DNA of 33,330 nt from Wenzhouxiangella sp. 15190 (GTDB lineage Bacteria > Pseudomonadota > Gammaproteobacteria > Xanthomonadales > Wenzhouxiangellaceae), in NCBI RefSeq assembly GCF_003417465.1, contig NZ_QVMV01000031.1:1-33330 (forward strand), in the 5' to 3' direction. Under the pieces are notes generated by a model. The model saw only the letters and a program-made list of their open reading frames with translations, was not told the DNA's origin and searched no databases. A program made the position numbers and the translations under genes. Within the stretch, counting starts at the first letter, position 1, and each line of letters starts with the position of its first letter. This document shows positions 12,571 to 28,180 of this stretch, one piece after another.

Positions 12571-12642
12571 GACGCAATCGCCGGCTAGAATGAAGGGCCG
12601 ATTATCCCTTTTTTGTTTCCGCGCTGCATGCGCGTTCGGGAT

Positions 12643-12807
12643 GAAAAGAGGAACCACGGAACACACGGAAGACACGGAATGAATGGTCCTCAACCAGCTT
12701 TGAAGCGATGGGTGTCGGTCCCGAATGCCGGGTGTATGCCTGGTAAGCGGGGAACCTTTTCTTTTCTCCGTTCCGTGCTTTCCGTGTCTTCCGTGGTTCC
12801 AGTTTTC
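12643..12807. repeat. Periodic inverted repeat A (9-base ACGGAA units)
   Basis: Arms 12643-12680 and 12770-12807 are complementary at 32 of 38 positions, with an 89-base middle. Each arm is a tandem array: ACGGAACAC, ACGGAAGAC, ACGGAA on the left and the reverse complement on the right. Mismatches fall mostly in the three-base joints between ACGGAA cores. The left arm lies in the gshA-peptide binding protein spacer; the right arm lies inside the binding-protein signal peptide. Similar sequences generate spurious TEHTEDTE and HGTHGRHG proteins in databases (from memory). Origin and function are unknown. Confidence 0.85.
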
Positions 12808-14307
12808 TTGTTCATGCTGCTGGCAGCCAGCGCAGCCGGAGCAGCGACGCTGCATCGCGGCGTCGGGCCGGAACCGGATTCGCTCGATATTCACACGGCG
12901 CAAAGCCTGTCGGCGCTGAATGTGTTGCGCGACCTGCACGAAGGCCTGTTGACCCTGGACGCCGAAGCCGAGTTGATTCCCGGCGTGGCGAAATCCTGGT
13001 CGGTCAGCGACGACGGCCGGGTCTGGGTGTTCGAACTGGATGAATCGGCCCGCTGGTCGGACGGTGAGCGCATCGTCGCCGATGATTTCGTCGCCGGCTG
13101 GCGGCGCGCCCTCGATCCCGCCACGGCCTCGCCCACCGCCGCGCTGTTCGACGTGGTCGAAAATGCCCATGAACTGCGTACCGGTGAAGTCGAAGCCGAC
13201 CAACTGGGTATCGAGGCGCTCGGCCCCGGCCGGCTTGAAGTGCGCCTGAATCGGCCGCTTTCCTGGTTCGGTGAACTGCTGACCCACCCGGTGACCTATC
13301 CCTGGCCGGGTGAAGGTTCGGCTCGTTTCAGCGGGGCGTTCGTGCTGGCCGGACAGGTGCCTGGTTCGCGGCTCGAACTCGAGCCCAACGAGCACTACCG
13401 CGCCGCCGGCCAGGTGGAACTCGACGGCGTGATTTGGCACGTCATCGAGCAGCCCAACGTCGAGCTCGCGCGCTATCGCGCCGGCCAGCTGCACGTGACC
13501 GAGACCATTCCGCCCGGCCGCATCGACTGGCTGCGCGAGCGGTTCGGCGATGAATTGAGAATCTCGCCCTACCTAGGCAGCTTCTTCCTGGCCTTCAATC
13601 TAAAGCGCGAACCGTTCGCCGATGCGCCGAAACTGCGCCGTGCGTTGAGCCTGGCCATCGACCGCGACATCATCACCGAGCGTGTGCTGGGTTCAGGCGA
13701 GATACCGGCCTGGGGACTGGTGCCGCCGGGCATGCCCGGCTGGCCGGAAGGGCGTGAGCCGCCGCTGCCGGCCGGCGAGCGCCTGGCCGAGGCCGAGCGC
13801 CTTTACCGCCAGGCCGGCTACGGTGAGGACCGGCCGCTCAAGGTCGAGCTGCGTTTCAATACCTCGCTCACCCATCGGCGCATGGCCGCGGCGATCGCGG
13901 CGATGTGGAAGCTGCACCTGGGCGTGCAGACCCGCTTGGTCAACGAGGAGTGGAAGGTCTTCATCGCCAATCGCCGCCAGGGGCGCATTACCGAAGTGTT
14001 CCGCGGCGGGTGGATCGCCGACTGGCGCGATGCCGTCAATTTCCTGCAATTGTTCGAGAGCGACAGCACCGGCAACTACACCTTCTTCGACGACGCGATC
14101 TTCGACGGGTTGATGCGCCGGGCCGAGCGCCAACGCGCTGACGGGCGGTTGAAGACCCTCAGGCAGGCCGAACGTCGACTGCTCGACGAGCAGGTCATCG
14201 TGCCCTTGTACTACTATGTCTCGAGGCATCTCGTGGATCCTCGCGTGCGCGGATTCGAAAACAATCCCATGGACATTCACCTTTCACGTTGGCTGTCGCT
14301 GCTGTGA
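12736..14307 (+). CDS. Peptide ABC transporter substrate-binding protein 1
   Basis: This is a family 5 extracellular solute-binding protein (OppA/DppA type), which captures oligopeptides in the periplasm for the permease encoded downstream. After the signal peptide the mature part opens [15 protein letters not shown], and has the usual [20 protein letters not shown] and [12 protein letters not shown]. From ATG 12736 it is 523 residues, with a signal peptide ending near SAAGA and no lipobox. The hydrophobic stretch [16 protein letters not shown] is encoded by the right arm of repeat A. The only shorter ATG (12814) would leave just a short signal without a positive region. Its stop overlaps the next start (GTGA). 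Confidence 0.9.
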
Positions 14308-16028
14308 GCCGCCTGTGGCCACTTTGCCTGATGCTGCTGCTGGTCGGGTGCAGCGAGCAGTCCGAACAACCGGTCGAGCCGCCGCCGTCCCTGGCGGATC
14401 CGGTAGCGGTGGAACTCGATGCCGACGGCCGCCCGGTTCCCGACATCCTGGCCGAGTCCCAGGTCATCCACCGCGGCAACGGCGAGGAGCCGCAGACCCT
14501 GGACCCGCACCTGGCCGAGGGCGTGCCCTCGACCAACATCCTGCGCGACCTGTTCGAGGGGCTGACCACCACGACCCCCGACGGCCACATCGTGCCCGGC
14601 GCGGCGCAGCACTGGGACATCAGTCGCGACGGGCTGACCTACACCTTCTTCCTGGATCCTGAAGGGCGCTGGAGCAACGGCGAACCGGTTACGGCCGAAG
14701 ACTTCGTATGGTCGTGGCAGCGCGCGGTCGATCCGTCCACCGGGGCTTCTTACGGTCGCATGCTTTCGCCGGTGGCCAATGCCGAGGCCATCTTCGCCGG
14801 AGAACTGCCGCCGGAAGAGCTGGGTGTGACCGCGCTCAATGACTCGACTTTCCAGGTCGATCTCAACCATCCCAGCCCCTATTTCCTGGGCCTGCTGACC
14901 CACCCCACCACCTACCCCGTGTACCGCGAAGCGGTCGAAGCGTATGGCGACAGCCACGTCCGTCCCGGCAACCTGGTCTCCAACGGCGCCTACACGCTTG
15001 AAGAATGGCGCGTGCGATCGAGTATCACGCTGGTGAAGAATCGCGCGTATCGGGCGGCCGATGACGTTATCGTCGAGCGCGTGGTCTTCTACCCCCTCGA
15101 AGACGAGAACACCGAGTTCAATCGCTTTCGTGCCGGTGACCTTCACTGGACCTACCAGGTGCCGTCGAACCGGTTTCAATGGCTCCGGGAAAACCTGGAC
15201 GAGGCGCTGATGGTCACGCCCTGGTTTGGCACCTACTTCTTTTCCTTCAATCTCACTCGCCCGCCCTTCAAGGACAACCTCGCGCTCAGGCAGGCGCTCA
15301 ACCTTGCCGTCGATCGCGAGATCCTGACCGAACGGGTCAGCCGTTTCGGCGAGATCCCGACTTTCAATCTCGTGCCGCCGGGCCTGCCCGAATACGAGCC
15401 ACCGGTCACCGACTGGGCGGACATGACCCAGAAAGAGCGCGAGGACGAGGCGAGACGGCTTTACCGGGAAGCGGGCTACAGCGAGGAAAAGCCGCTTGCG
15501 GTGGAGCTGCGTTACAACGCCTCCGAGAACCATCGCAAGATCGCCGTGGCCATCGCGGCCATGTGGAAGCAGGTGCTCGGCGTTCGCACGCGCCTGATCA
15601 ACGAGGAGTTCCGGGTCTTTCTCCAGAACCGCGCCCAGCGCCGGGTCACCGAGGTGTTCCGTTCCGGCTGGATCGGCGACTACCAGGACGCTTTCACTTT
15701 CCTCGAACTGTTTCACTCCGAGCACGGCCGCAACGACGCCGGCTACGACAACCCGCGATTCGATCGCCTGCTCGAGCGCATTGCCGCCGAACGCGTCCCG
15801 GCCAGTCGCCGCAACCTGATGGCCGAAGCCGAGCGCATGATTTTGGCCGACCAGGTGATCCTGCCGGTGTACAACTACGTCACCAAGCGCTTGATTGACC
15901 CTCGCTTGAAAGGCTGGAAAGAAAATGTCATGGATCACCACCTGACGCGCTATATGTACCTGGTGAGGGCCCGTGAGGCCGGGGAGGAAGAGGACGCCGC
16001 CGAGGAGGCCGAAGGGGAGGAGTCGTGA
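14304..16028 (+). CDS. Peptide ABC transporter substrate-binding lipoprotein 2
   Basis: A second family 5 binding protein follows directly. GTG at 14304, within a GTGA overlap with the previous stop, gives a 574-residue precursor starting [20 protein letters not shown] is a lipobox, so this copy should be a lipoprotein, unlike its neighbour. Family stretches are IHRGNGEEPQTLDPH, GRWSNGEPVTAEDFVWSWQR and LRQALNLAVDREIL. The two proteins align closely along their length and look like a tandem duplication. An acidic C-terminal tail (EAGEEEDAAEEAEGEES) is absent from the first copy. A TTG at 14289 is a less likely start. Confidence 0.92.
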   Translation: MSRLWPLCLMLLLVGCSEQSEQPVEPPPSLADPVAVELDADGRPVPDILAESQVIHRGNGEEPQTLDPHLAEGVPSTNILRDLFEGLTTTTPDGHIVPGAAQHWDISRDGLTYTFFLDPEGRWSNGEPVTAEDFVWSWQRAVDPSTGASYGRMLSPVANAEAIFAGELPPEELGVTALNDSTFQVDLNHPSPYFLGLLTHPTTYPVYREAVEAYGDSHVRPGNLVSNGAYTLEEWRVRSSITLVKNRAYRAADDVIVERVVFYPLEDENTEFNRFRAGDLHWTYQVPSNRFQWLRENLDEALMVTPWFGTYFFSFNLTRPPFKDNLALRQALNLAVDREILTERVSRFGEIPTFNLVPPGLPEYEPPVTDWADMTQKEREDEARRLYREAGYSEEKPLAVELRYNASENHRKIAVAIAAMWKQVLGVRTRLINEEFRVFLQNRAQRRVTEVFRSGWIGDYQDAFTFLELFHSEHGRNDAGYDNPRFDRLLERIAAERVPASRRNLMAEAERMILADQVILPVYNYVTKRLIDPRLKGWKENVMDHHLTRYMYLVRAREAGEEEDAAEEAEGEES

Positions 16029-16030
16029 GG

Positions 16031-16152
16031 GCGCGAAATTCGAAATCCGAAATCCGAAATCCGAAACGGAAAAGCACCACGAAATCAAGCGGCAGCGTTT
16101 TCGTGCTTGGGTTTTCGAATTTGTTTCGGATTTGGTGCTTCGAATTTCGTGC
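16031..16152. repeat. Periodic inverted repeat B (7-base CGAAATC units)
   Basis: The left arm from 16034 is a run of CGAAATT, CGAAATC x3 and CGAAAC. The right arm, ending at 16152, carries the reverse complement in a more diverged form. The outer 14 bases on each side (16031-16044 and 16139-16152) pair with one mismatch. The element fills the spacer between binding protein 2 and oppB, and so interrupts an operon whose other genes mostly overlap. Comparable sequences give EIRNPKSE-type spurious proteins in databases (from memory). Confidence 0.8.
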
Positions 16153-16182
16153 TTTTTGCCAAGATCAAGGGCGATCAGCGCC

Positions 16183-17121
16183 ATGTTGAAATACTCGCTC
16201 CGCAGGTTGGCATCAGCCATCCCGACCCTGTTCCTCCTGATCACCTTCGCTTTCTTCCTGATTCGCATCGCGCCCGGCGGGCCGTTCGATTCGGAGCGGG
16301 CCTTGCCACCGGAGATCGAGGCCAACCTGGCGGCGAAGTATCATCTCGACGAACCATTGGTGTTTCAGTACGGGCGCTATCTGTGGCAGATCGTCAGGGG
16401 TGACCTGGGGCCGTCGTTCCACTATCGCGACTGGTCGGTCAATGATCTGATTGCGCAGGGGGCGCCGGTGTCTTTCGCCCTGGGAGTGGCGGCGTTGTTG
16501 CTGGCGTTGGTCATTGGTGTGATCACTGGCGCATGGGCCGCTCTGCGTCAGAACAAGCCGGTGGATTATACGGTGATGAGTATCGCCATGGTCGGTATAT
16601 CGATTCCGAACTTCGTCATGGCGCCACTGCTAATCCTGTTGTTCGCCATTGTGCTCGGCTGGTTGCCGGCCGGCGGCTGGGCCTTCAGTTTCGACCGAAT
16701 GATACTGCCGGTGATCACGCTCGCCTTGCCGATGATCGCCTATATCGCACGCATCACCCGCGGCTCGATGATCGAGGTCTTGCATTCGAGCTATATCCGG
16801 ACCGTGCGCGCCAAGGGGATGCCGGAAAAGGAAGTGATCCTGCGTCATGCACTCAAGCCCGCGCTGCTGCCGGTGATCTCTTATCTCGGGCCGGCTGCCG
16901 CGGCCATCCTGACCGGTTCGGTGGTGGTCGAGCGCATTTTCACCATTCCCGGCATCGGCTCCTATTTCGTCCAGGGCGCGCTCAACCGTGACTACACGCT
17001 GGTGATGGGCGTGGTCATCCTCTATGGTGTGCTCATCATCCTGTTCAACTTCATGGTCGACCTGCTCTACGCCTGGCTCGACCCGCGCATCCGCTATGAC
17101 GACGGGGAGGCCGAAACTTGA
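16183..17121 (+). CDS. oppB: Peptide ABC transporter permease OppB/DppB type
   Basis: The 312-residue inner-membrane protein starts MLKYSLRRLASAIPTLFLL, the usual OppB N-terminus, with a first membrane helix, the RIAPGGPFDSER periplasmic segment and five further helices. The cytoplasmic EAA loop that docks on the ATPase reads YIRTVRAKGMPEKEVILRHALKP in register (split here by no indel). The frame is open further upstream, but that part is translated repeat B, so ATG 16183 is chosen. Its stop overlaps the oppC start in TTGA. The name follows family resemblance; di- versus oligopeptide preference cannot be told. Confidence 0.93.
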   Translation: MLKYSLRRLASAIPTLFLLITFAFFLIRIAPGGPFDSERALPPEIEANLAAKYHLDEPLVFQYGRYLWQIVRGDLGPSFHYRDWSVNDLIAQGAPVSFALGVAALLLALVIGVITGAWAALRQNKPVDYTVMSIAMVGISIPNFVMAPLLILLFAIVLGWLPAGGWAFSFDRMILPVITLALPMIAYIARITRGSMIEVLHSSYIRTVRAKGMPEKEVILRHALKPALLPVISYLGPAAAAILTGSVVVERIFTIPGIGSYFVQGALNRDYTLVMGVVILYGVLIILFNFMVDLLYAWLDPRIRYDDGEAET

Positions 17122-18026
17122 GTGACGAGGCAACCCGCGACGCCTTCGAGCAGGCGCTCGACACCCGCGAGGTGCGGGGGCGTTCGCTCTACGTCGATGC
17201 CTGGCACCGGCTGCTGAAGAACAAGGCCGCCGTGGCGGCGCTGATCGTCCTGGTTGTGATCGTCGCGCTGGTCAGTTTTGGACCGATGCTGTCGGGGTGG
17301 GATCACGAGATTCCCGACTGGGATCATTACTCCTCGCCACCATCGCTGGAGAATGACCATATCTTCGGCACCGATGCGCTCGGCCGCGATCTTTTCGTGC
17401 GCACCATGATCGGCGGACGCATCTCGCTGCTGGTCGGTTTGGTGGCCACGCTGGTCTCGCTGCTTATCGGCGTGACCTGGGGTGCCTTCGCCGGCTACGT
17501 CGGCGGGCGAGCCGACAACGTGATGATGCGCATCGTCGATGCTGTCTATGCCATGCCCTTCATGTTCTTCGTGATCCTGTTGATGGTGGTGTTCGGGCGC
17601 AACATCTTTTTGATCTTCGTCGCCATCGGTGCGATCAACTGGCTCGACATGGCGCGCATCGTCCGCGGCCAGACCTTGAGCCTGAAGAACAAGGATTTTG
17701 TCGAGGCTGCGCGCGCCAGCGGCGCCACGGAGTGGCAGGTCATCCGCCGCCACATCGTGCCCAACCTGCTCGGCGTGGTCATCGTTTACGTCACACTGAC
17801 CATCCCGCAGGTGATCCTGGTCGAGAGCTTCCTGAGTTTCCTCGGCCTGGGCGTGCAGGAGCCACTGACTTCCTGGGGCGCACTGGTCAACGAGGGTGCC
17901 CAGGAAATGGAAACTGCCCCCTGGTCGTTGCTCTACCCGGCCACCTTCCTGGCGGTAACGCTGTTCGCGTTCAACTTCATCGGCGATGGATTGCGCGACG
18001 CGCTGGATCCGAAGGATCGACAGTGA
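17118..18026 (+). CDS. oppC: Peptide ABC transporter permease OppC/DppC type
   Basis: This second permease subunit is 302 residues. It has an N-terminal cytoplasmic stretch, a first helix near residues 38-56, a periplasmic loop ending HIFGTDALGRDLF (a DppC/OppC signature) and five more helices. The EAA loop reads VEAARASGATEWQVIRRH. Translation should start at TTG 17118, which overlaps the oppB stop by four bases and has GGGAGG about eight bases upstream. It pairs with OppB to form the channel energised by the two ATPases. A long spacer with repeat C follows before oppD. Confidence 0.93.
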   Translation: MSDEATRDAFEQALDTREVRGRSLYVDAWHRLLKNKAAVAALIVLVVIVALVSFGPMLSGWDHEIPDWDHYSSPPSLENDHIFGTDALGRDLFVRTMIGGRISLLVGLVATLVSLLIGVTWGAFAGYVGGRADNVMMRIVDAVYAMPFMFFVILLMVVFGRNIFLIFVAIGAINWLDMARIVRGQTLSLKNKDFVEAARASGATEWQVIRRHIVPNLLGVVIVYVTLTIPQVILVESFLSFLGLGVQEPLTSWGALVNEGAQEMETAPWSLLYPATFLAVTLFAFNFIGDGLRDALDPKDRQ

Positions 18027-18032
18027 AGTTTC

Positions 18033-18209
18033 GAAAACAGAAAATAGTGAATAGAAAATAGATGGAGCCAATGAGCAAGGACCGAACAAGTATGGGAATG
18101 TTTGGTGCCCTATCGAGGGCAGGCGTGGGTGAGTCATCCGGTTTCAATTCGCGTAAGGCGCTTGCGGCGAGTTCGACTTTCTATTTTCTATTTTCTATTT
18201 TCTATTTAC
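18033..18209. repeat. Periodic inverted repeat C (7-base AAAATAG units)
   Basis: Arms 18033-18061 and 18181-18209 pair at 25 of 29 positions across a 119-base middle. The right arm is a run of CTATTTT units, and the left arm is the AAAATAG complement with TGAATAG variants. It fills the spacer between oppC and oppD. The AT-rich arms contrast strongly with the GC-rich genes either side. The same unit recurs in repeats D and E of the atp operon, nearly 10 kb away. Confidence 0.85.
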
Positions 18210-18245
18210 TTTCCCATCTCACTGTCAACCCAATGGCTTCTGGCA

Positions 18246-19226
18246 ATGGCTCTCTTAGAAGTTCGTGACCTAACCGTCTCCTTCGACACCCCCGACGGCG
18301 TCGTGCATGCCGTCAACGGGATCAGTTTCGATCTCGAGCCCGGTGAGACGCTGGGGCTGGTGGGCGAGTCGGGCTCGGGCAAGACGCAGACCGCGCTGGC
18401 GCTGATGGGGTTGCTGGCCGAGAACGGTCAGGCGACCGGCTCGGTGAAGTTCCGCGGCCAGGAACTGCTGGGGATGTCGCTGTCCGAACTGACCCGCGTG
18501 CGGGGCTCGAAGATCTCGATGATCTTTCAGGATCCGGTCTCCTCGCTCAACCCGTACATGACCGTCGGTGACCAGCTTATCGAGGTACTGACCCACCACC
18601 GTAATCTCAAGAAAAAGCCCGCGCGCGAACGGGCCATCGAGATGCTGCGCCAGGTCCAGCTCAGCGACGCCGAGCAGCGCATGCGCCAGTATCCGCACGA
18701 GTTGTCCGGCGGCATGTGCCAGCGCGTGATGATCGCCATGGGGCTTTTGTGCCAGCCCGATCTGCTGATTGCCGACGAGCCGACCACCGCGCTCGACGTG
18801 ACCGTCCAGTCGCAGATCAATTCGCTCATGGGTGAGCTCTCGACCCAGTCGTCGACCGCAATTCTGCTGATCACCCACGACCTGGGCGTGGTCGCCGGTC
18901 TGTGTAATCGCGTCCTGGTTATGTACGCCGGCAAGGAGATGGAAATGGCCGGGGTGGACGAGTTGTTCGCCGACCCGCAGCACCCCTACACCGAAGGGCT
19001 GCTGGCCTCGGTGCCGCGACTGGATCGGCACGATTCGGGCATTATGCACGCCATTCCCGGCAATCCGCCCAATCTGCTCGAGGTGCCGGAGGGTTGCCCC
19101 TTCCGCGATCGCTGTTCCTATGCCTGGGACAAGTGTCGCGCGCTGCCCGAGTTCGAGGAAGTCGGCGAAGGCCGCTTCAAGCGCTGTCATCTCGAGTCGC
19201 TGCCGTCGAAGAAGGAGGCCGGCTGA
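18246..19226 (+). CDS. oppD: Peptide ABC transporter ATPase OppD/DppD type
   Basis: A 326-residue nucleotide-binding subunit with Walker [10 protein letters not shown], signature LSGGMCQR, Walker [14 protein letters not shown] and switch His in LLITHDLG. The C-terminal extension carries the Cys-rich peptide-transporter motif [14 protein letters not shown] plus a later KRCH; in Dpp/Opp ATPases such cysteines have been linked to an iron-sulfur site. The start at 18246 ([16 protein letters not shown]) fits the family; further upstream the frame is translated repeat C. The Shine-Dalgarno is weak. The stop overlaps the oppF ATG by one base (TGATG). Confidence 0.94.
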
Positions 19227-20272
19227 TGCGCAATCCCGTGTTGCAGGTGCGCGATCTCGAGGTGAGCTTCCGCGTCGATACCGGTTGGCTGTTTCATCAC
19301 GACTACCACAGCATCCGGGCCGTCGACGGGGTGAGTTTCGACGTCTACCCCGCCGAGACCCTCGGCGTCGTGGGTGAGTCGGGTTGCGGCAAGTCGACCC
19401 TGGCGCGCGCGATTCTCGGCCTGCAACGGCCCAGGCGCGGCGAAATCCTGTGGCTGGGTGAGGACCTGGTCCAGGTCAGCGAGGAGACGTTGCGAAGGAA
19501 ACGCCGCGAGATTCAGCTCATCTTCCAGGACCCGCAGGGCTCGCTCGACCCGCGCATGACCGTCGGTGACATCATCGCCGAGCCGCTGAAGACGTTCTTT
19601 CCGTCGATGTCGCGCCTGCAGATCCGCGAGCGCGTGACCGGCATCCTCAAGCTGGTGGGTCTGCGGCCCGACCAGATCAACCGCTACCCGCACGAGTTCT
19701 CCGGCGGGCAGTGCCAGCGCGTCGGCATCGCCCGCGCCCTGGTGGTCAACCCGCGCCTGGTCGTCTGCGACGAGCCGGTCAGCGCGCTGGACGTCTCCAT
19801 CCAGGCACAGATCGTGAATCTGCTCAAGGACCTGCAGAAGAAGCTGCAACTGTCGCTGATCTTCATCGCCCACGACCTGTCGATCGTGCGCCACGTTTCC
19901 GACCGCATCCTGGTGATGTACATGGGCAAGGTGATGGAGCTGGCCGACCGTTCCAGCATCTACCGTGAGCCGCGCCACCCCTACACGCGTGCGCTGATCG
20001 AGTCGGTGCCGATTCCCGACCCGGCGCGCGAACGTGCCCGCGCCCGGCGCTCGCTGCAGGGCGACATGCCCTCACCGCTGAATCCGCCCTCGGGCTGCGT
20101 TTTTCGCACACGCTGTCCCTTCGCCACGGAGCTGTGCGCCGAGAAGGTGCCCGAGCTCGAAACCCTGGACAATGGCCACCAGGTCGCCTGCCACCATCAC
20201 CGCGACCTGCCGCCGGCGCCGACGCCGGGCGAAGAGCGTGAGACCGATACTGGAGAGCGAGCACCATCGTGA
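19226..20272 (+). CDS. oppF: Peptide ABC transporter ATPase OppF/DppF type
   Basis: The partner ATPase, 348 residues, has Walker A GESGCGKSTLA, signature FSGGQCQRVGIAR, Walker B LVVCDEPVSALDV and LIFIAHDLS. The N-terminal region contains the OppF-type insertion between beta strands (GWLFHHDYHSIRAVDGVSF). C-terminal cysteines in CVFRTRCPFATELC match the motif in OppD. GGAGG lies about eight bases before the ATG. The gene ends in a GTGA overlap with rsmG, which ties peptide uptake genes to the rsmG-par genes in one transcript. Confidence 0.94.
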   Translation: MRNPVLQVRDLEVSFRVDTGWLFHHDYHSIRAVDGVSFDVYPAETLGVVGESGCGKSTLARAILGLQRPRRGEILWLGEDLVQVSEETLRRKRREIQLIFQDPQGSLDPRMTVGDIIAEPLKTFFPSMSRLQIRERVTGILKLVGLRPDQINRYPHEFSGGQCQRVGIARALVVNPRLVVCDEPVSALDVSIQAQIVNLLKDLQKKLQLSLIFIAHDLSIVRHVSDRILVMYMGKVMELADRSSIYREPRHPYTRALIESVPIPDPARERARARRSLQGDMPSPLNPPSGCVFRTRCPFATELCAEKVPELETLDNGHQVACHHHRDLPPAPTPGEERETDTGERAPS

Positions 20273-20898
20273 ACGCCGATGCACAGCGTGCCAGGCTGGA
20301 TGCCGGCCTGGCGGGTCTCGGACTGACGCTGGATGAGGCGCAAGAGGATTGCCTGATCGACTACCTGGCCCTCCTCTCGCGCTGGAATCGCGCCTATAAT
20401 CTCACCGCCGTCGACGAGCCGACGGCGATGGTCGACCGGCACCTGATCGACAGCCTGAGCATCCTGCCCTGGATCGAGGGCCGCGAGATCGTCGATGCCG
20501 GCACGGGCGCCGGCCTGCCCGGCGTGCCATTGGCGATCGTCTGTCCCGAGCGGCACTTCGTGCTCGTCGACAGCAACGGCAAGAAGGTACGCTTTCTGCG
20601 CCAGGTGCGTCGGGAACTGAATCTCGAGAACATCGAGCCGGTACAGGCCCGCCTGGAAGCATTCGAGCCCGATACCGTGCCCGATCAGGTCGTCGCGCGG
20701 GCCCTGGCGCCGCTGCCCAGGCTGGTCGAGCAGCTCGGCCACCTGCTGGCCGCAGGCGCGACCCTGCTGGCGATGAAGGGCCGGCTCGAAGATGACGAGT
20801 GCGCTGCGGTGGCGGATGCGTACAATGTCGATCGGATCGAACTGAACGTGCCCGGCGCGGATAGCGCCCGCAGCCTGGCCATCCTGAGGAAGTCATGA
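20269..20898 (+). CDS. rsmG: 16S rRNA (guanine-N7) methyltransferase
   Basis: RsmG (GidB) methylates G527 of 16S rRNA using S-adenosylmethionine. The 209-residue protein has LSRWNRAYNLTAV, HLIDSLSILP and the SAM-binding motif VDAGTGAGLPGVPLAI. The start is GTG 20269, overlapping the oppF stop. parA follows in an ATGA overlap. In many gammaproteobacteria mnmG (gidA) lies directly upstream of rsmG; here the opp genes take that place, so mnmG must lie elsewhere or be missing from the window only. Confidence 0.95.
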   Translation: MNADAQRARLDAGLAGLGLTLDEAQEDCLIDYLALLSRWNRAYNLTAVDEPTAMVDRHLIDSLSILPWIEGREIVDAGTGAGLPGVPLAIVCPERHFVLVDSNGKKVRFLRQVRRELNLENIEPVQARLEAFEPDTVPDQVVARALAPLPRLVEQLGHLLAAGATLLAMKGRLEDDECAAVADAYNVDRIELNVPGADSARSLAILRKS

Positions 20899-21728
20899 CA
20901 CAGCGAAAGGCCCGAATCGTGGCCGTAACCAACCAGAAGGGCGGCGTGGGCAAGACCACCACGGCGCTCAACCTTGCTGCCGGCCTGGCCGAACTCAAGC
21001 GGCGCGTGCTGCTGATCGACATCGATCCCCAGGGCAATGCCACCACCGGATCGGGTGTCGAGCTCGAAGAAGGCCAGAACACGCTTTGCGAAGTGTTGAT
21101 GGGCGAGTGCGCGATTTCCGAAGCGGTCGTGCCCGTCGAGGCGATGGGCTTCGACCTGGTGCCGGCCAACGGCGACCTGACCGCCGCGGAGGTGGCGCTG
21201 ATGGACGAAGACGACCGGGCCAGCGTTCTGCGCGGCGTCCTGGCCAATGCCGCCTCGCGTTATCACCACATCATCATCGATTGTCCGCCGTCGCTGAACG
21301 TACTCACCCTCAACGCGCTGACCGCCGCCGACTCGGTACTGATACCGATGCAGTGCGAGTACTATGCGCTCGAGGGGTTGACCGCGTTGCTCAGCACCAT
21401 CGAGCAGATCCAGGATTCGGTCAATCCGGAACTGGAAATCGAGGGCCTGGTGCGCACCATGTTCGATATTCGCAACAACCTCTCCGGCGCCGTGTCGCGT
21501 CAGCTTTCCGAGCATTTCGGCGACAAGCTCTACGCCACGGTGATCCCGCGCAACGTGCGCGTGGCCGAGGCGCCGAGCTACGGTCAGTCGGTGATCCACT
21601 ACGATCGCGATTCGCGCGGTGCCGTGGCCTATCTGGGCCTGGCCGGCGAATACCTCAGGCGCATGGGCGAGGCGACGCGTACGCCCTCGAATACGGCCCA
21701 GGACCTGGCCGCCGAACAACAACTCTAG
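20895..21728 (+). CDS. parA: Chromosome partitioning ATPase ParA (Soj)
   Basis: ParA is a DNA-binding ATPase that moves ParB-bound origin regions during chromosome segregation. The 277-residue protein has the deviant Walker A KGGVGKTT (15-22) with the signature lysine, IDIDPQGNAT, DCPPSLNVLT and PRNVRVAEAPSYGQS, all typical of chromosomal Soj-type ParA. The short N-terminus without a DNA-binding extension also fits the chromosomal type. It begins in an ATGA overlap with rsmG; parB starts 16 bases after its stop. Confidence 0.97.
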   Translation: MTQRKARIVAVTNQKGGVGKTTTALNLAAGLAELKRRVLLIDIDPQGNATTGSGVELEEGQNTLCEVLMGECAISEAVVPVEAMGFDLVPANGDLTAAEVALMDEDDRASVLRGVLANAASRYHHIIIDCPPSLNVLTLNALTAADSVLIPMQCEYYALEGLTALLSTIEQIQDSVNPELEIEGLVRTMFDIRNNLSGAVSRQLSEHFGDKLYATVIPRNVRVAEAPSYGQSVIHYDRDSRGAVAYLGLAGEYLRRMGEATRTPSNTAQDLAAEQQL

Positions 21729-21744
21729 ACCGGAACACACGCCA

Positions 21745-22632
21745 ATGGCCGCTTCACGCAAGAAGAAACCTTTGGGCAAGAACCTCGACGCCCTGCTCGG
21801 AAAGACCCGCGCCGCCGCCGAGCAGGCCAGCCCGGAGGGCGAGCTGACCGGCCTGAAGGAACTGCCGGTCGACGTGATCGAACCCGGTCGCTACCAGCCC
21901 CGGTCGGCCATGGATCCCGACCGCCTGCAGGAGTTGTCGGACTCGATCAAGGAACAGGGTCTGGTTCAGCCGATCGTGGTGCGTCCCCTGGCAAAGCAGG
22001 GCCGCTACGAGTTGATTGCCGGCGAGCGTCGCTGGCGTGCCTGCCGGATGGCCGGCATGGAAACCATTCCGGCCCTGGTGCGCGAGATTGCCGACGAGGC
22101 CACGCTGGCGCTGGCCCTGATCGAGAACATCCAGCGCGAGGATCTCAATCCGCTCGAGGAAGCAGGGGCGCTCAGGCGCCTGATCGAGGAATTCGGCCTC
22201 ACGCACGAACAGGCCGCCCGCAGCGTGGGCCGTTCGCGCACTTCGGTGACCAACCTGCTCAGGCTGATGGAACTCGCACCCGAAGTGCGCGAGATGGTCG
22301 ACAGCAAGCAGATCGACATGGGTCATGCCCGGGCGCTGCTCACGCTCGAGCGCCCCGACCAGATCCGCGCCGCTCACGAGGTGGTCGACAAGGACCTGTC
22401 GGTACGCCAGACCGAGGCCCTGGTGCGGCGCATGCGTGAAGGCGCGCCCGAGCCGAAGAAATCGAAACCCGAGCGCAAGCCCGCCGATATCGAGCGCCTC
22501 GAGCAGGAACTGACTGAATCCCTCTGCGCGCCGGTCAGCGTCAAGCACTCGGCCTCTGGCAAGGGCCAGGTCACCATCAAGTACACCAGCCTTGACGAAC
22601 TCGACGGCCTGCTGGAACGTTTCCGGCGCTAG
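21745..22632 (+). CDS. parB: Chromosome partitioning protein ParB (Spo0J)
   Basis: ParB binds parS sites near the origin and spreads as a CTP-dependent clamp, with ParA as its partner. The 295-residue protein has an N-terminal ParA-stimulating stretch KPLGKNLDALLG, the CTP-binding motifs GERRWRACRMAG and ENIQREDLNPLEEA, a helix-turn-helix (THEQAARSVGRSRTSVTNLLR) and a C-terminal dimerisation segment. The start at ATG 21745 gives the usual basic N-terminus. I found no TGTTTCACGTGAAACA-like parS site in the window. The atp promoter follows. Confidence 0.97.
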   Translation: MAASRKKKPLGKNLDALLGKTRAAAEQASPEGELTGLKELPVDVIEPGRYQPRSAMDPDRLQELSDSIKEQGLVQPIVVRPLAKQGRYELIAGERRWRACRMAGMETIPALVREIADEATLALALIENIQREDLNPLEEAGALRRLIEEFGLTHEQAARSVGRSRTSVTNLLRLMELAPEVREMVDSKQIDMGHARALLTLERPDQIRAAHEVVDKDLSVRQTEALVRRMREGAPEPKKSKPERKPADIERLEQELTESLCAPVSVKHSASGKGQVTIKYTSLDELDGLLERFRR

Positions 22633-22699
22633 AGTTCCGCGTTCGCTTGAACTCCACCCGGGAATTTGACGGTTCCCGGCACGGCGGGCGGCAATCGGC

Positions 22700-22729
22700 T
22701 TGCCGCTCGCTTCTCGCCCCTGCTATAAT
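22700..22729 (+). promoter_or_regulatory. Sigma-70-type promoter of the atp operon
   Basis: TTGCCG (22700-22705) and a perfect TATAAT (22724-22729) are spaced by 18 bases, in the 217-base spacer between parB and atpI. Transcription should begin near 22736, leaving a leader of about 115 bases before the atpI start. This is the best-matching promoter in the window and is well placed to drive all nine atp genes. Confidence 0.75.
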
Positions 22730-22735
22730 TCTCGG

Positions 22736-22849
22736 GATTTGTGGCCACCGGTGGTGCTCAGGGCATCGGCGGTGGCATTTTTGTCGATGCGCGATTCCCG
22801 TATCGGCAAGCCTGGCATCGACGCAGGATAGTGGCAGGGGACCATACAG
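22736..22849 (+). promoter_or_regulatory. Structured atp leader
   Basis: The predicted untranslated leader holds a ten-base palindrome CCACCGGTGG (22744-22753) and a perfect eight-base stem GTCGATGC/GCATCGAC (22783-22790 and 22815-22822) across 24 bases. The stem ends about 27 bases before atpI. No known riboswitch or ribosomal-protein-type leader was recognised. It may only shape translation or stability of the operon message. Confidence 0.35.
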
Positions 22850-23227
22850 GTGCAGGAGAGATTCGCTCACACCGTGGTCTGGCTGCTTCGCCTGCAAGCG
22901 GTGCTCAGCGTGCTCGGCGCGCTTGCCTTCGGCCTGCTGGCCGGCGTCCCCCAGGCCCTTGCGGTGCTCGTCGGGGGCGGCATCGGCGTGTTGTTGACCG
23001 CGGTCAGTGCACTTCGTGCGGGGGCTGCGACCAGCGAGGCTGAGCCTGCGCAGATGATGGCGGCCTTTTACCGCGCCATGGCGCTGAAGCTGGTGCTGGC
23101 GGTGGTGTTGTTCGTCGTCGTCGCCAAATGGTTTGCCGGTTACTTCGCGCCGGTTTTGACAGGATACGTGGCCACCGTGCTGGCCTACTGGATTGCGCTG
23201 CTGCGCCTGGGGCGCGCGGCTGAATGA
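22850..23227 (+). CDS. atpI: ATP synthase assembly protein AtpI
   Basis: AtpI is a small membrane protein encoded first in many atp operons; it aids c-ring assembly but is not part of the finished enzyme. This 125-residue protein has four predicted membrane segments, with the AtpI-type stretch FYRAMALKLVLAVVLF in the second half. Sequence is poorly conserved in this family, so position is a main part of the evidence. The start is GTG 22850, preceded by a purine-rich GCAGGGGA. Confidence 0.88.
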   Translation: MQERFAHTVVWLLRLQAVLSVLGALAFGLLAGVPQALAVLVGGGIGVLLTAVSALRAGAATSEAEPAQMMAAFYRAMALKLVLAVVLFVVVAKWFAGYFAPVLTGYVATVLAYWIALLRLGRAAE

Positions 23228-23230
23228 TGA

Positions 23231-24040
<810 letters not shown>

Positions 24041-24072
24041 TTCGACAAACCCGTAAACCAAGCTCTAAGTAG

Positions 24073-24360
<288 letters not shown>

Positions 24361-24416
24361 TCAGCGCGAGTGACCGTTTACTTCAGACCAAACGCGTATA
24401 ACTGCAGGGGAATGCT

Positions 24417-24890
24417 ATGGATGTCTCGCTAGGCACCCTGATCGGCCAGGCCGGCACCTTCCTGGTGCTGGTGCTGGTCACGATGAAGTACGTCTGGCCG
24501 CCGGTGACCAAGGCCATGGAAGAGCGTCGGCGCAAGATTGCCGAGGGCCTGGCCCAGTCCGAGGAGGCCGAGCAGGCCCTGGACAAGGCCAACGCCGAAG
24601 CCGACGAGATCATCCGCGAGGCCCGTCGCAAGGCCGGTGAGGTCATCGAGCAGGCCAGCCAGCGCGGTAATCAACTCGTCGAGCAGGCCAAGGAAGAGGC
24701 CATTGCCGAACGCGATCGCCAAGTTCAGGCCGCCGAGGCGGAAATCCGCCAGGCGACCAACCAGGCGCGTGAGGCCCTGCGCGAAAGCGTGGCCTCGCTG
24801 GCGATTGCCGGCGCCGGCCGGGTGATCGAGTCCGAGATCGACGACAAGCGGCATCGCGAGATGCTCGACAAGCTGGCCGCGGAACTGTAA
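24417..24890 (+). CDS. atpF: ATP synthase F0 subunit b
   Basis: Subunit b forms the peripheral stalk. The 157-residue protein has one N-terminal membrane helix (LGTLIGQAGTFLVLVLVTMKY in parts) and a long charged coiled coil rich in Glu, Arg and Ala. The start is ATG 24417, with GCAGGGG about six bases upstream. atpH starts three bases after its stop. Two copies per enzyme. Confidence 0.97.
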   Translation: MDVSLGTLIGQAGTFLVLVLVTMKYVWPPVTKAMEERRRKIAEGLAQSEEAEQALDKANAEADEIIREARRKAGEVIEQASQRGNQLVEQAKEEAIAERDRQVQAAEAEIRQATNQAREALRESVASLAIAGAGRVIESEIDDKRHREMLDKLAAEL

Positions 24891-24893
24891 GCC

Positions 24894-25430
24894 ATGCTCA
24901 ACCGGACCACACTTGCCCGACCCTATGCCCGCGCCGCTTTCGAGGCGGCCCGGGATGCCGACGCCTACGATCACTGGAGCGAGGCGCTGGAGTTGGCCTC
25001 CGAGATCGCCGGCGCCGAAGAGATGCGCTACCTCGCCGGCGACCCGCGCGTGAGCGGCGATCGCCTGCTCGAACTGTTCACCGGCATCGGCAAGGACCGT
25101 TTCGACGAGTCGTTCGAGAATTTTCTTCGGGTGGTCATCACCAACGGTCGCCTGGAACTGCTGCCGGAAATCGCGGCCCAGTACGAGCAGTACCGCCGCG
25201 AAGCCGAACAGCGGATCCGGGTCGAGGTGTTTTCGGCCCGGCCCATGGACGACAAACAGTCCAGCGAACTGGCCGAACGCCTCAAGGCCCGCTTCGGGCG
25301 GGAAGTGGACATGCACGTCGAGGTCGACGAATCGCTCATCGGCGGTGCGGTGATCCGCGCCGGCGACGAAGTCATCGACGGCAGCGTGCGCGGGCGTCTC
25401 GAACAGCTGGGCCGACGAATCAACGCATAA
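24894..25430 (+). CDS. atpH: ATP synthase F1 subunit delta
   Basis: Delta joins the peripheral stalk to the top of the alpha-beta head. The 178-residue protein begins LNRTTLARPYARAAFE, a typical OSCP/delta N-terminus, and ends with the conserved DESLIGGAVIRAGDEVIDGS region. It lies immediately after atpF. A 66-base spacer without a notable repeat separates it from atpA. Confidence 0.96.
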   Translation: MLNRTTLARPYARAAFEAARDADAYDHWSEALELASEIAGAEEMRYLAGDPRVSGDRLLELFTGIGKDRFDESFENFLRVVITNGRLELLPEIAAQYEQYRREAEQRIRVEVFSARPMDDKQSSELAERLKARFGREVDMHVEVDESLIGGAVIRAGDEVIDGSVRGRLEQLGRRINA

Positions 25431-25496
25431 ACGGTTCGGTCGCGACAACTATCGGGTCGGCGGCCGGAATGAATTGAATGTTCAAGGATTGCAAAA

Positions 25497-27044
25497 ATGC
25501 AGCAGACCCTAAACCCGACTGAAATTTCCGATCTGATCCGCAAGCGCGTGGAGCAGTTCGAAATCTCCTCCGAAGCGCGCACCGAAGGTACGGTGGTCAG
25601 CGTTTCCGACGGCATTTGCCGCCTCCACGGCCTGGCCGATGCCATGCAGGGGGAGATGATCGAGTTTCCCGACGAAACCTACGGCCTGGCGCTCAACCTC
25701 GAGCGCGACTCCGTCGGCTCGGTGGTGATGGGCGACTACACGCACATCAAGGAAGGCGACACCGTGCGTTGCACGGGCCGCATCCTGGAAGTGCCGGTGG
25801 GCGAGGCGCTGCTGGGCCGCGTGGTCGACTCGCTGGGCAACCCCATCGACGGCAACGGACCGATCGATACCGACAGCACCGAGCCGATCGAGAAGATCGC
25901 GCCGGGGGTGATTGCCCGCCAGGGCGTCGACCAGCCGGTTCAGACTGGCCTGAAATCCATCGATGCCATGGTGCCGATCGGCCGCGGTCAGCGTGAATTG
26001 ATCATCGGCGACCGCCAGACCGGCAAGTCGGCGGTGGCGATCGACGCGATCATCAACCAGAAGGGCAAGGGCATCAAGTGCATCTACGTCGCCATCGGCC
26101 AGAAGGCCTCGTCGGTGGCCTCGGTGGTGCGAAAGCTCGAGGAGCACGGCGCCATGGAGCACACCATCGTGGTCGCTGCCAACGCCTCCCAGTCGGCCGC
26201 GCTCCAGTACATTGCCCCCTACGCGGGCTGCGCCATGGGCGAGTACTTCCGCGACCGAGGCGAAGACGCCCTGATCGTCTACGACGACCTCACCAAGCAG
26301 GCCTGGGCCTATCGCCAGGTGTCGCTGCTGCTGCGTCGTCCGCCGGGCCGCGAAGCCTACCCCGGTGACGTCTTCTATCTCCACTCGCGCCTGCTCGAAC
26401 GCGCCTCGCGGGTGAACGCCGATTTTGTCGAGGAAAAGACCAACGGTAAGGTCAAGGGCAAGACCGGTTCGCTGACCGCGTTGCCGATCATCGAAACCCA
26501 GGCCGGTGACGTGTCCGCCTTCGTGCCGACCAACGTCATCTCGATTACCGACGGCCAGATCTTCCTGGAAACCGACCTGTTCAACGCCGGTATCCGTCCG
26601 GCCATCAACGCCGGCCTGTCGGTTTCGCGTGTTGGCGGTTCGGCCCAGACCAAGATCATCAAGAAGCTCGGCGGCGGTGTCCGTCTGGCCCTGGCGCAGT
26701 ACCGTGAGTTGGCGGCGTTCTCGCAGTTCGCCTCCGATCTCGACGAGCAGACGCGCAAGCAGCTCGAGCGCGGCCAGCGCATCACCGAGCTGATGAAGCA
26801 GCCGCAGTACACGCCGCTTTCGGTGGCCGAAATGGCGGTCAGTCTGTTTGCCGGAAACGAGGGTTACCTCGACGATCTGCCGCTCAACAAGGTAACGGAC
26901 TTCGAGGTGGCGTTGCGCGACTACATGAGCAGCAGCCACGAAGACCTGATGAAGAAGATCAACGAAAAGGGCGACTGGAACGACGAACTCAAGGAAGAGC
27001 TGAAGAAGGCCTGCGAGGAGTTCAAGAAGACCGGCTCGTGGTGA
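25497..27044 (+). CDS. atpA: ATP synthase F1 subunit alpha
   Basis: Alpha carries the non-catalytic nucleotide sites and the arginine finger. The 515-residue protein has Walker A GDRQTGKS (171-178), Walker B ALIVYDDL and the VSRVGGSAQ segment holding the finger residue. Length and sequence are typical of gammaproteobacteria. Three copies per enzyme. Repeat D begins 16 bases after its stop. Confidence 0.98.
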
Positions 27045-27060
27045 GCCAGCCTTCAGTAAA

Positions 27061-27128
27061 TCGTAAATAGTGAATAGTAAATAGGCCCGGCCCAATCGGT
27101 TTTTCTATTTTCTATTTTCTATTTACGA
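27061..27128. repeat. Periodic inverted repeat D (7-base AAAATAG units)
   Basis: Arms 27061-27084 and 27105-27128 pair at 21 of 24 positions around a 20-base middle, the tightest hairpin of the set. The outer TCGTAAATAG is perfectly paired; mismatches fall in the variable first bases of the inner units. It lies between atpA and atpG. No T-run follows in the way expected of a terminator, and the operon clearly continues, so complete termination is unlikely. Confidence 0.88.
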
Positions 27129-27192
27129 GTATCGAAAGCTCCGAAGGCAACAGTACAGATGCCAATAGCGAAATGAATCGAAGGCAGCAAAT

Positions 27193-28056
27193 ATGAGCGG
27201 ATCAAGAGAAATCGTCGGCCAGATCAAGAGCATCAAGAACACGCGCAAGGTCACCAGTGCGCTGGAGATGGTCTCGGCCAGCAAGATTCGCAAGGCGCAG
27301 GACCGCATGGAGGCTTCTCGGCCCTACGCGCGGATGATGCGCCAGGTGATCGGCCATCTGGCGCACGCCAATCCCGAATACCGCCACCCGTTCACGGTCG
27401 AGCGCGAGGAAATCAAGCGCGTGGCCTACATCGTCATGGCGACCGATCGCGGTCTCTGCGGTGGCCTCAACAACACGCTATTCCGCAAGCTCCTCGGCGA
27501 GTTCCGCCAGTGGCAGGAAAAGGGTGTCGAGGTGACGATGGTGCTGGTCGGTCGAAAAGCCGCCCAGTTTTTCCGTCGTGTCCAGATCGAGATTTCCGCC
27601 GCGACCCAGGATCTGGGCGAGCAGCCGCGCCTGGAGGACCTGATCGGTTCGATCAAGGTCGTGCTGGACGGCTACAGGGAAGAAGAGGTCGATCGTGTCT
27701 ACCTGTGCTACAACCGATTCATCAACACGATGACGCAGAAGTCCGTCGTCGAGCCGGTACTGCCGCTGCCACCGGCCGAGGACGAACCCATGCTGCAGTA
27801 CTGGGACTACCTCTACGAGCCCGACGCCGAGCAATTGCTCGACGACGTGCTGACGCGCTATGTCGAGTCACTGATCTACCAGGCCGCCCTGGAAAACGTG
27901 GCCAGTGAACACGCCGCGCGCATGGTCGCCATGAAGAGCGCATCGGACAACGCCAGCGACCTGATCGACGACCTGCAACTAGCTTACAACAAGGCCCGAC
28001 AGGCGGCGATCACGCAGGAGATTTCCGAGATCGTCGGCGGTGCCGCTGCGGTCTGA
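27193..28056 (+). CDS. atpG: ATP synthase F1 subunit gamma
   Basis: Gamma is the central rotor shaft. The 287-residue protein has the conserved N-terminal helix ([20 protein letters not shown]) and C-terminal helix ([17 protein letters not shown]), plus the [11 protein letters not shown] segment. The start is ATG 27193. One copy per enzyme. It is flanked on both sides by periodic inverted repeats (D and E). Confidence 0.97.
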
Positions 28057-28060
28057 TTGC

Positions 28061-28180
28061 GAGTGATAAGTGAATAGAGCAAGAAGAAAATAGAAAATAG
28101 AAAAAAGTAAATAGAAGGTCTAACTGGGCTTTCCTAATCTATTTTCTATTAACTATTTTCTATTTTCTTATCACTATCGT
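28061..28180. repeat. Periodic inverted repeat E (7-base AAAATAG units)
   Basis: The left arm contains GTGATAAG (28063-28070) and then AAAATAG, AAAATAG and TAAATAG units. The right arm 28139-28179 contains CTATTTT units and ends with CTTATCAC (28167-28174), which pairs with the outer GTGATAAG. About 13 extra bases in the left arm make a bulge. It fills most of the atpG-atpD spacer. It shares its unit with repeats C and D but has a different outer flank and spacer, so it is not a simple copy. Confidence 0.85.

Follow-up and report, generated by a model that had tools for sequence, protein, structure and literature searches.

Five inverted arrays of short tandem units in a Wenzhouxiangella contig, probable gene-less members of two kinds of small hairpin element

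How can one hairpin design recur in unrelated sequences? The question is raised by five inverted repeats, A to E, in a 33,330-nt contig stretch of Wenzhouxiangella sp. 15190 (the window; its source genome is labelled G000), in each of which the arms are arrays of short tandem units and the second arm is the reverse complement of the first. We consider it likely that all five are non-autonomous copies, lacking a gene, of small hairpin elements that come in two parallel kinds, B to E belonging to kind 1 and A to kind 2. In the full-length form, one small gene stands between a short-unit array and the reverse complement of that array. The gene of kind 1 encodes the four-helix "23S rRNA intervening-sequence protein" (PF05635, hereafter IVP) and the unit has 7, less often 8, bases; in kind 2 it is a GxxExxY gene (PF13366), unrelated to IVP, and the unit has 8 to 10 bases.

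A first-pass annotation of the window had described five inverted repeats drawn from three unrelated unit families of 7 or 9 bases, and both statements are borne out by direct reading, by shuffling and by Tandem Repeats Finder (TRF), which independently recovers at least one arm of each repeat. Element A has a left arm of 9-base CACGGAAxA units (12643..12679, forward strand), recovered by TRF and matching an arm of a GxxExxY locus (L123), and a right arm (12771..12807, reverse strand) that is its reverse complement and alone gave no class match. Element B, in the oppA-oppB spacer, is made of 7-base CGAAATC units; its left arm (16031..16084, forward), recovered by TRF, shares its unit with the IVP locus L005, and its right arm (16099..16152, reverse) has a longer stretch in common with the right arm of that locus. 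Elements C, D and E form one 7-base family (xxAATAG). C lies in the oppC-oppD spacer, with AAAATAG units in a left arm at 18035..18062 (forward) and a right arm at 18180..18207 (reverse) that was recovered by TRF and matches the arms of IVP locus L001. D lies in the atpA-atpG spacer, with IVP-class arm matches on both sides (27061..27084, forward, units xxAATAG; 27105..27128, reverse, recovered by TRF). E, in the atpG-atpD spacer, spans 28061..28180 as a whole hairpin, including an outer AGTGATAAG/CTTATCACT stem around two arrays that TRF recovers (28084..28115, forward, units AAAATAG; 28138..28169, reverse); by eye, its outer end resembles the right end of L001.

Compared without gaps, the left arm agrees with the reverse-complemented right arm at 32/37 positions in A, 34/54 in B (whose arms are longer and more diverged than those of the other four), 25/28 in C, 21/24 in D and 28/32 in E, close to the earlier counts by eye of 32/38, 25/29 and 21/24 for A, C and D. 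The inverted-repeat scores are 27, 23, 22, 18 and 24 for A to E, where the best of 100 dinucleotide shuffles of each stretch scored 10 to 16, and no shuffle (0/100 per stretch) reached either the inverted or the tandem score observed. The predicted RNA folds of A (cut short at the end of its right arm), B, D and E beat 200/200 shuffles, with z from -3.5 to -6.1; C was not folded. None of the five contains an IVP gene and none is inserted in 23S rRNA, all of them lying in protein-gene spacers. The low-complexity spurious frames remarked on earlier do run through arms in the window. One oppA-like open frame (12613-12888) passes through the right arm of A and is hydrophobic and signal-peptide-like there, so that this arm may, to judge from the sequence, have been incorporated into an oppA-like signal peptide; the relatives of the oppA gene behind A are 44-46% identical in 4/5 stretches with a match, too distant for a comparison of the N-terminus.

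The co-occurrence of low-complexity frames with "four helix bundle" genes led us to search for PF05635, and G000 gave five matches, where 0/14 control genomes had any. All five IVP genes (5/5, L001-L005) sit between inverted arrays, with inverted-repeat scores of 21-43 and one unit for each locus: AAATAGT (as in C-E), CGAAAT (as in B, with a weak tandem score and the highest inverted score of the five), GGTTGGCT, GTCTGTG and AGTGTGA. Two of the five loci therefore bear units of the window (AAAATAG and CGAAAT). Across the family, an IVP match was found in 23/43 genomes, in 21 of them above the cut-off, and the units are mostly of 7-8 bases. We scored flank pairs by local alignment of the upstream with the reverse-complemented downstream sequence, using a threshold of 17 picked after the first scores had been seen. 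After removal of two of the 41 IVP places, which were below the cut-off (L026, L027), and of 14/60 atpG/oppB control loci with short flanks, the threshold was reached by 29/39 IVP loci and 3/46 controls, one of these being the window's own D/E. The association of gene and array is thus directly observed.

The second gene family repeats this pattern. A GxxExxY match was found in 29/43 family genomes, and in relatives the gene is flanked by arrays of 8-10-base units. From 44 places, nine were dropped (eight fragments and one contig end) and one of the remaining 35 was set aside for a short flank; an inverted-repeat score of at least 17 was then reached by 33/34 usable loci (3/46 for the same atpG/oppB controls). 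Units have 8, 9 or 10 bases in the family (CGCAGATGAA, ACGCAAAG, CACCGAAGA) and 11 in one plasmid locus. Median scores are 23 for IVP, 29 for GxxExxY and 12 for atpG/oppB; mismatched flank pairs have medians of 11 (IVP) and 13 (GxxExxY). In a sample across phyla, in which 29/43 GxxExxY places were scored and 25 of the 29 came from one family, 23/29 reached the threshold against 2/57 control points. The names given by NCBIfam to the scanned proteins are TIGR02436 (IVP) and TIGR04256 (GxxExxY).

Invariant alignment columns of GxxExxY hold D, E and K residues, and the structural neighbours of a GxxExxY model are weak PD-(D/E)XK matches (best E 0.015, none at or below 0.001), so that a PD-(D/E)XK nuclease fold is weakly suggested by the model and cutting of the hairpin is a natural guess for kind 2. 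Beside this, one GxxExxY protein (L106:1501-1836) has Pfam matches below the cut-off to phage endonuclease I (E 0.009) and to a TnsA-like nuclease (E 0.09), and the model made for a relative (L117) weakly matches an fdxN-element excision controlling factor in the PDB (2okf, E 0.075). We know of no catalytic role for IVP, nor of any role for the TIGR02436 four helix bundle or for TIGR04256 GxxExxY.

The arrays accompany IVP genes far beyond this family. We took the best 80 of at least 579 stretches with a match from GTDB species genomes; judging by their titles, we take these named loci to come from Pseudomonadota, Campylobacterota, Bacteroidota, Gemmatimonadota, Nitrospirota, Planctomycetota, Bacillota, Gracilibacteria, WOR-3, Cloacimonadota and Lentisphaerota. 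An inverted-repeat score of at least 17 together with a tandem score of at least 9 was reached by 58/80 loci against 3/137 control points in the same loci (inverted score alone, 61/80 against 9/137; tandem score of at least 11 alone, 61/80 against 12/137). Since the set contains orthologues, we also counted clusters of flanks: of 46, 32 pass by their first member and 34 by any member. Among the 61 loci with a strong array the period is 7 in 54, 8 in six and 9 in one. Both neighbours, each taken as the longest open reading frame on its side, are co-directional with the IVP gene in 56/80 loci and 32/46 clusters (a rough caller of open reading frames supplied both the gene calls and the strands of the neighbours). 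Plasmids carry such loci as well: of 30 plasmid records with an IVP match five were compared, four cyanobacterial and one from Gemmatirosa, and all five (5/5) have inverted arrays with scores of 21-35. In an Anabaena plasmid the IVP gene is flanked by cas6 and cas4, and in a Nostoc edaphicum plasmid it lies between two ribonucleotide reductase genes. With blastn, E. coli 23S rRNA had no match in any locus compared (two E. coli stretches with rRNA being excluded).

Using 433 kb of G000 (the window plus 400 kb, about 14% of the genome), we then took a census of arrays. There are 92, in about nine unit families by eye. Of these, 48 combine a period of 7-10 with an inverted partner, and no such array occurs in 200 kb of E. 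coli K-12. When these inverted arms were compared with the arms of the family's IVP and GxxExxY loci, 41/48 matched one class beyond five shuffles each: on the IVP side arms of period 7 (22) and of GTTGGCTG units (6), on the GxxExxY side arms of period 9 (5), of period 10 (6) and of ACGCAAAG units (2). The unit class of the gene-less arms thus matches that of the gene-bearing loci; 7/48 arms, including the right arm of A, had no class match. Terminal inverted repeats are shared with gene-bearing relatives by A (left arm, with GxxExxY) and by B (left), C (right), D and E (with IVP). The first-pass annotation had held that a random spread over coding and non-coding DNA would speak against a shared mechanism; 35/48 inverted arms lie outside gene calls, a lower figure, since the rough caller reads through arms such as those of A and B, and two of the 48 (L239, L251) lie by look in plain coding DNA and are probably not elements. 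Each main unit family is dispersed in several copies within the part of the genome read, and copies of a family have outer ends in common, e.g. AACCACGGAA...TTCCGTGGTT. From this repeated occurrence, spread within families seems to occur too.

The occupants of a given spacer differ between species. In the same genus, the spacers of the window's operons hold units AAAGGTA, GAGGGAGA, TCAGGGG or CGAAATC, a GxxExxY element, or nothing. In the oppC-oppD spacer of four relatives a homologous loop lies between arms of differing unit number, so that the comparison of orthologous spacers suggested with the first-pass annotation does reveal variation in the number of units.

At the level of the order we examined 58 accB-accC loci, which were chosen rather than sampled (30 were those that best matched a filled site, 20 were selected by hand, for the most part because their matches lacked or split the element part, and eight were named loci; L159 and L322, both among the 58, look like one genome). 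At 39 of them the spacer holds an IVP element of 419-470 bases, and at seven a short hairpin (96-140 bases; units GGGACCC-like or other). The remaining 12 spacers are short: 11 measure 9-11 bases and one measures 59. Close relatives may differ: L307 and L289 are identical at 388/390 bases of accC and 273/282 of accB, and one of the two has a gene-less GGGACCC hairpin where the other has a GGGAATC IVP element; L315, with a 10-base spacer, and L304, with an IVP element, agree at 379/390 and 271/300 bases. Structures solved for the IVP family include 2rld and 2gsc; the protein of the latter, XCC0516, is closely homologous to the accB-accC IVP.

At the accB-accC sites with an IVP element, CCC directly precedes the accC start codon in 35/39, mostly as the end of the right arm (e.g. 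L275-L298, L212), and the purine-rich stretch of some short spacers (GGAG in L310) is absent at the sites ending in CCC. In the atpA-atpG spacer of two family genomes (L052 in G037, L057 in G025) a one-sided GTCCCGA array of four units lies directly before atpG, with no clear left arm. A diverged, shorter IVP with long CGAAATC-like arms stands near the same gene, RidA-like by eye, in three genomes (L005, L025 and L040, in G000, G034 and G039), and to judge from the sequences this element is old and shared. On one contig of G000 (C22), two GTCTGTG-type arrays of the same direction, adjoining an IVP element, enclose a nucleotidyltransferase gene and a weakly HepT-like NTase_sub_bind gene (L003:655-1378). 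Beside another IVP element (L004:1897-2987) two toxin genes occur, one BrnT-like and paired with a ribbon-helix-helix-like gene, the other ParE-like and paired with a ribbon-helix-helix gene; each pair is bounded by CTTCACA arrays. Small toxin-antitoxin-like genes may thus ride between arrays.

A number of results weigh against reading A to E as members of such elements, or against parts of that reading. The respective score thresholds are missed by 10/39 family and 22/80 named IVP loci. Since units recur at different loci, mismatched flank pairs have a high upper tail (95th percentile 24 for IVP and 31 for GxxExxY), and only 17/39 IVP and 9/34 GxxExxY loci score above it. In the sample across phyla, the alignments behind at least two of the 23 GxxExxY passes (L337, L343) do not look like arrays, and of eight plasmid records with a GxxExxY match six were compared, of which only 2/6 loci reach the threshold (L154 of Gemmatirosa and L329 of Bernardetia). 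Some IVP genes have direct rather than inverted arrays (L009, L014, L030 and L038, with units such as AACTGAA and AAACCGG); near L038 lies a motif, GGCGGTAGCGTG, that we take to be ops-like and that hints at polysaccharide loci. The loops of gene-less copies of the same family are mostly unrelated by eye, only the GTTGGCTG copies sharing inner sequence. Target-site duplications, the other ground that had been named against a shared mechanism, were looked for by eye in spacers both filled and short and around the copies of a family, and none was seen, the flanks being old and diverged; no clean insertion scar was found, and movement was not observed. Concerted evolution of the arms speaks for the reading, as in the 39 orthologous accB-accC elements a left arm matches its own right arm better than those of other elements (24.1 against 19.7; 0/20,000 permutations reach it), but relatedness contributes to this excess as a confounder. 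Covariation between protein and unit is weak (Mantel r 0.10; 211/5000 permutations).

The strand signal, too, runs against one part of the reading. Counting one locus per cluster (34 clusters), arm mismatches on the IVP gene strand are G-U in 56 cases and A-C in 105; the figures are 85 and 146 in the 58 named IVP loci that pass and 13 and 63 in the 39 accB-accC elements, which are not independent, and the family sets taken alone have no clear A-C excess (46 and 56 in 29 IVP loci, 64 and 59 in 33 GxxExxY loci). Selection on a sense-strand RNA hairpin is not supported, as A-C mismatches outnumber G-U, and this argues against part of the spread and tolerance proposed below. The mismatches look as though folding took place on the antisense strand.

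Three other explanations have to be set against these data. The arrays could be microsatellite-like simple sequence repeats that arise in place by slippage, one arm then being inverted by a template switch and the genes being accidental passengers. This would fit the differing unit numbers of orthologous copies, the arms that evolve in concert and the mostly unrelated loops, and an earlier study had linked the excess of heptamer repeats to slippage (PMC4692102). We nevertheless judge it quite unlikely: the enclosed genes are non-random (IVP 58/80 against 3/137 control points, GxxExxY 23/29 against 2/57), unit length tracks the gene family, a few unit families recur in one genome with conserved outer ends, and 200 kb of E. 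coli yielded none. The pure array-generating process suggested in the first-pass annotation is likewise not supported as stated, the arms being tied to IVP and GxxExxY genes and the main unit families recurring, while its argument that a design common to several unit families is insufficiently explained by copying within one family is upheld. Still less credible, indeed highly improbable, is a selected regulatory role of the arrays as G-quadruplexes or other non-B DNA, as considered for the GGGAATC repeats of Xanthomonas. Circular dichroism spectroscopy and a preference for four units (PMC4692102), and the presence of arrays at accB-accC in many species speak for it; the AAAATAG, CGAAATC and CACGGAA units have the same design and yet contain no run of three G, and the authors themselves could not identify a role in gene regulation (PMC4692102).

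It is also unlikely, in our estimation, that A to E are elements of the type of miniature inverted-repeat transposable elements (MITEs) or repetitive extragenic palindromic (REP) sequences, moved by an unrelated transposase (Y1/RAYT or another) or by a reverse transcriptase in trans, with IVP and GxxExxY as cargo. G000 does have three Y1_Tnp matches, toxin-antitoxin-like genes also occur between arrays, and single-strand processing could lie behind the excess of mismatches that would form G-T pairs on the antisense strand. On the other hand, G000 has no PF00078 (reverse transcriptase) match, and G016, a genome 99% complete, has neither a PF00078 nor a PF01797 match and still carries two IVP and three GxxExxY matches. 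Among the 43 family genomes 12 have a PF00078 match and 19 a Y1_Tnp match, and Y1 transposase is missing from G016, G034, G035 and others that bear IVP or GxxExxY matches; by their presence in these genomes, neither a reverse transcriptase acting in trans nor a Y1 transposase is supported as the mover. A diversity-generating retroelement with its Avd protein was rejected, since G000 lacks a PF00078 match and none of the four G000 IVPs scanned reaches the cut-off for Avd (L001) or bAvd (L001, L003). Separately, one region of G037 (C1:3792391-3820990) has nine PF00078 matches in about 29 kb, four of them with identical scores and several being fragments, and a GxxExxY gene beside a reverse transcriptase is reported in PMC8934634.

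Returning to A to E as gene-less members of the two kinds of hairpin element, we propose that spacers, frequently those inside operons, are or once were invaded by the elements. Folding into a hairpin would make an element tolerable at such a site, most likely because RNase III would cut it out of the transcript, by analogy with rRNA intervening sequences. The repeated unit would serve as a binding platform of the encoded protein; in keeping with a protein that binds the core of the unit, many units combine, by eye, a core that is conserved with one or two positions that vary freely. Slippage of the arms, with correction templated by the hairpin (or selection for pairing), would keep the two arms alike while the unit drifts, and in this way one design could come to be written in many unrelated units. 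A wider reading is possible, and we advance it only tentatively: that these hairpins are mobile and form an unrecognised, phylum-spanning class, rRNA intervening sequences being those members that happened to insert in 23S genes. The arms would then be the recognition platform of IVP or GxxExxY, the element would be copied as a folded single strand (probably the antisense one) without reverse transcriptase or known transposase, and slippage and hairpin-templated repair would keep re-inventing the unit. If this were true, the excess of heptamer repeats in bacterial genomes would largely be the remains of such elements.

With such elements three loose ends would meet, namely the origin and function of rRNA intervening sequences, the bacterial heptamer excess, the role of which is left open in PMC4692102, and two protein families; each would gain a testable partner in protein, arms and landing sites. 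Hairpin elements would also explain many low-complexity spurious frames and would be a force reshaping operon spacers such as those of accB-accC, atpA-atpG-atpD and the opp operon.

The first-pass annotation had known of no described system with these properties, a view that is not upheld, as the arrays form the arms of elements that in full-length form code for IVP or GxxExxY. Heptamer arrays and rRNA intervening sequences were known before; their link to IVP and GxxExxY appears to be new, and among the papers listed we recognised none tying either protein to such arrays, in a literature coverage that excluded most subscription journals and all bioRxiv preprints and in which the term GxxExxY occurs in two papers. 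The Foldback elements of Drosophila likewise have terminal inverted repeats made of tandem subrepeats; they are eukaryotic, much larger and moved by a DNA transposase. REP/REPIN sequences with their RAYT are, as here, short palindromes dispersed in spacers, but are not known to have arms of tandem units, and ordinary MITEs share internal sequence, whereas here loops are mostly unrelated except in the GTTGGCTG family.

Among bacterial heptamers, the TAACTGA arrays of Beggiatoaceae are numerous and intergenic, some of them in operons, and their author considered mobility; unlike the arrays described here they are direct repeats (169 sets, with one indirect), and the words "S23", "intervening" and "four helix" do not occur in the text (PMC4679880). 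The GGGAATC and GGGGA(C/T)T heptamers of Xanthomonas and Nostoc also form intergenic arrays, with 70 and 75 inverted pairs in two Xanthomonas genomes; they were read as quadruplex-forming simple sequence repeats of open function, generally without association with mobile elements, and "S23", "four-helix", "intervening" and "xcc0516" are absent from the main text (PMC4692102). There is also a close likeness to the intervening sequences of 23S rRNA that carry an S23/IVP gene, e.g. in Coxiella, where a PF05635 gene lies, as here, between inverted terminal repeats forming a long stem. According to the accessible part of that report, such sequences occur sporadically in several bacteria, are excised from rRNA by RNase III, are called unclear in origin and function, and have a 28-bp stem for which no tandem units are mentioned, a comparison that rests on their description (PMC4990558). 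The elements described here differ in lying in protein-operon spacers, in having arms of tandem units and in their abundant gene-less copies. In the full-length relatives L001-L005 the IVP/S23 gene lies between inverted repeats, just as in an intervening sequence, and the A to E hairpins may be related to the intervening sequences of bacterial rRNA.

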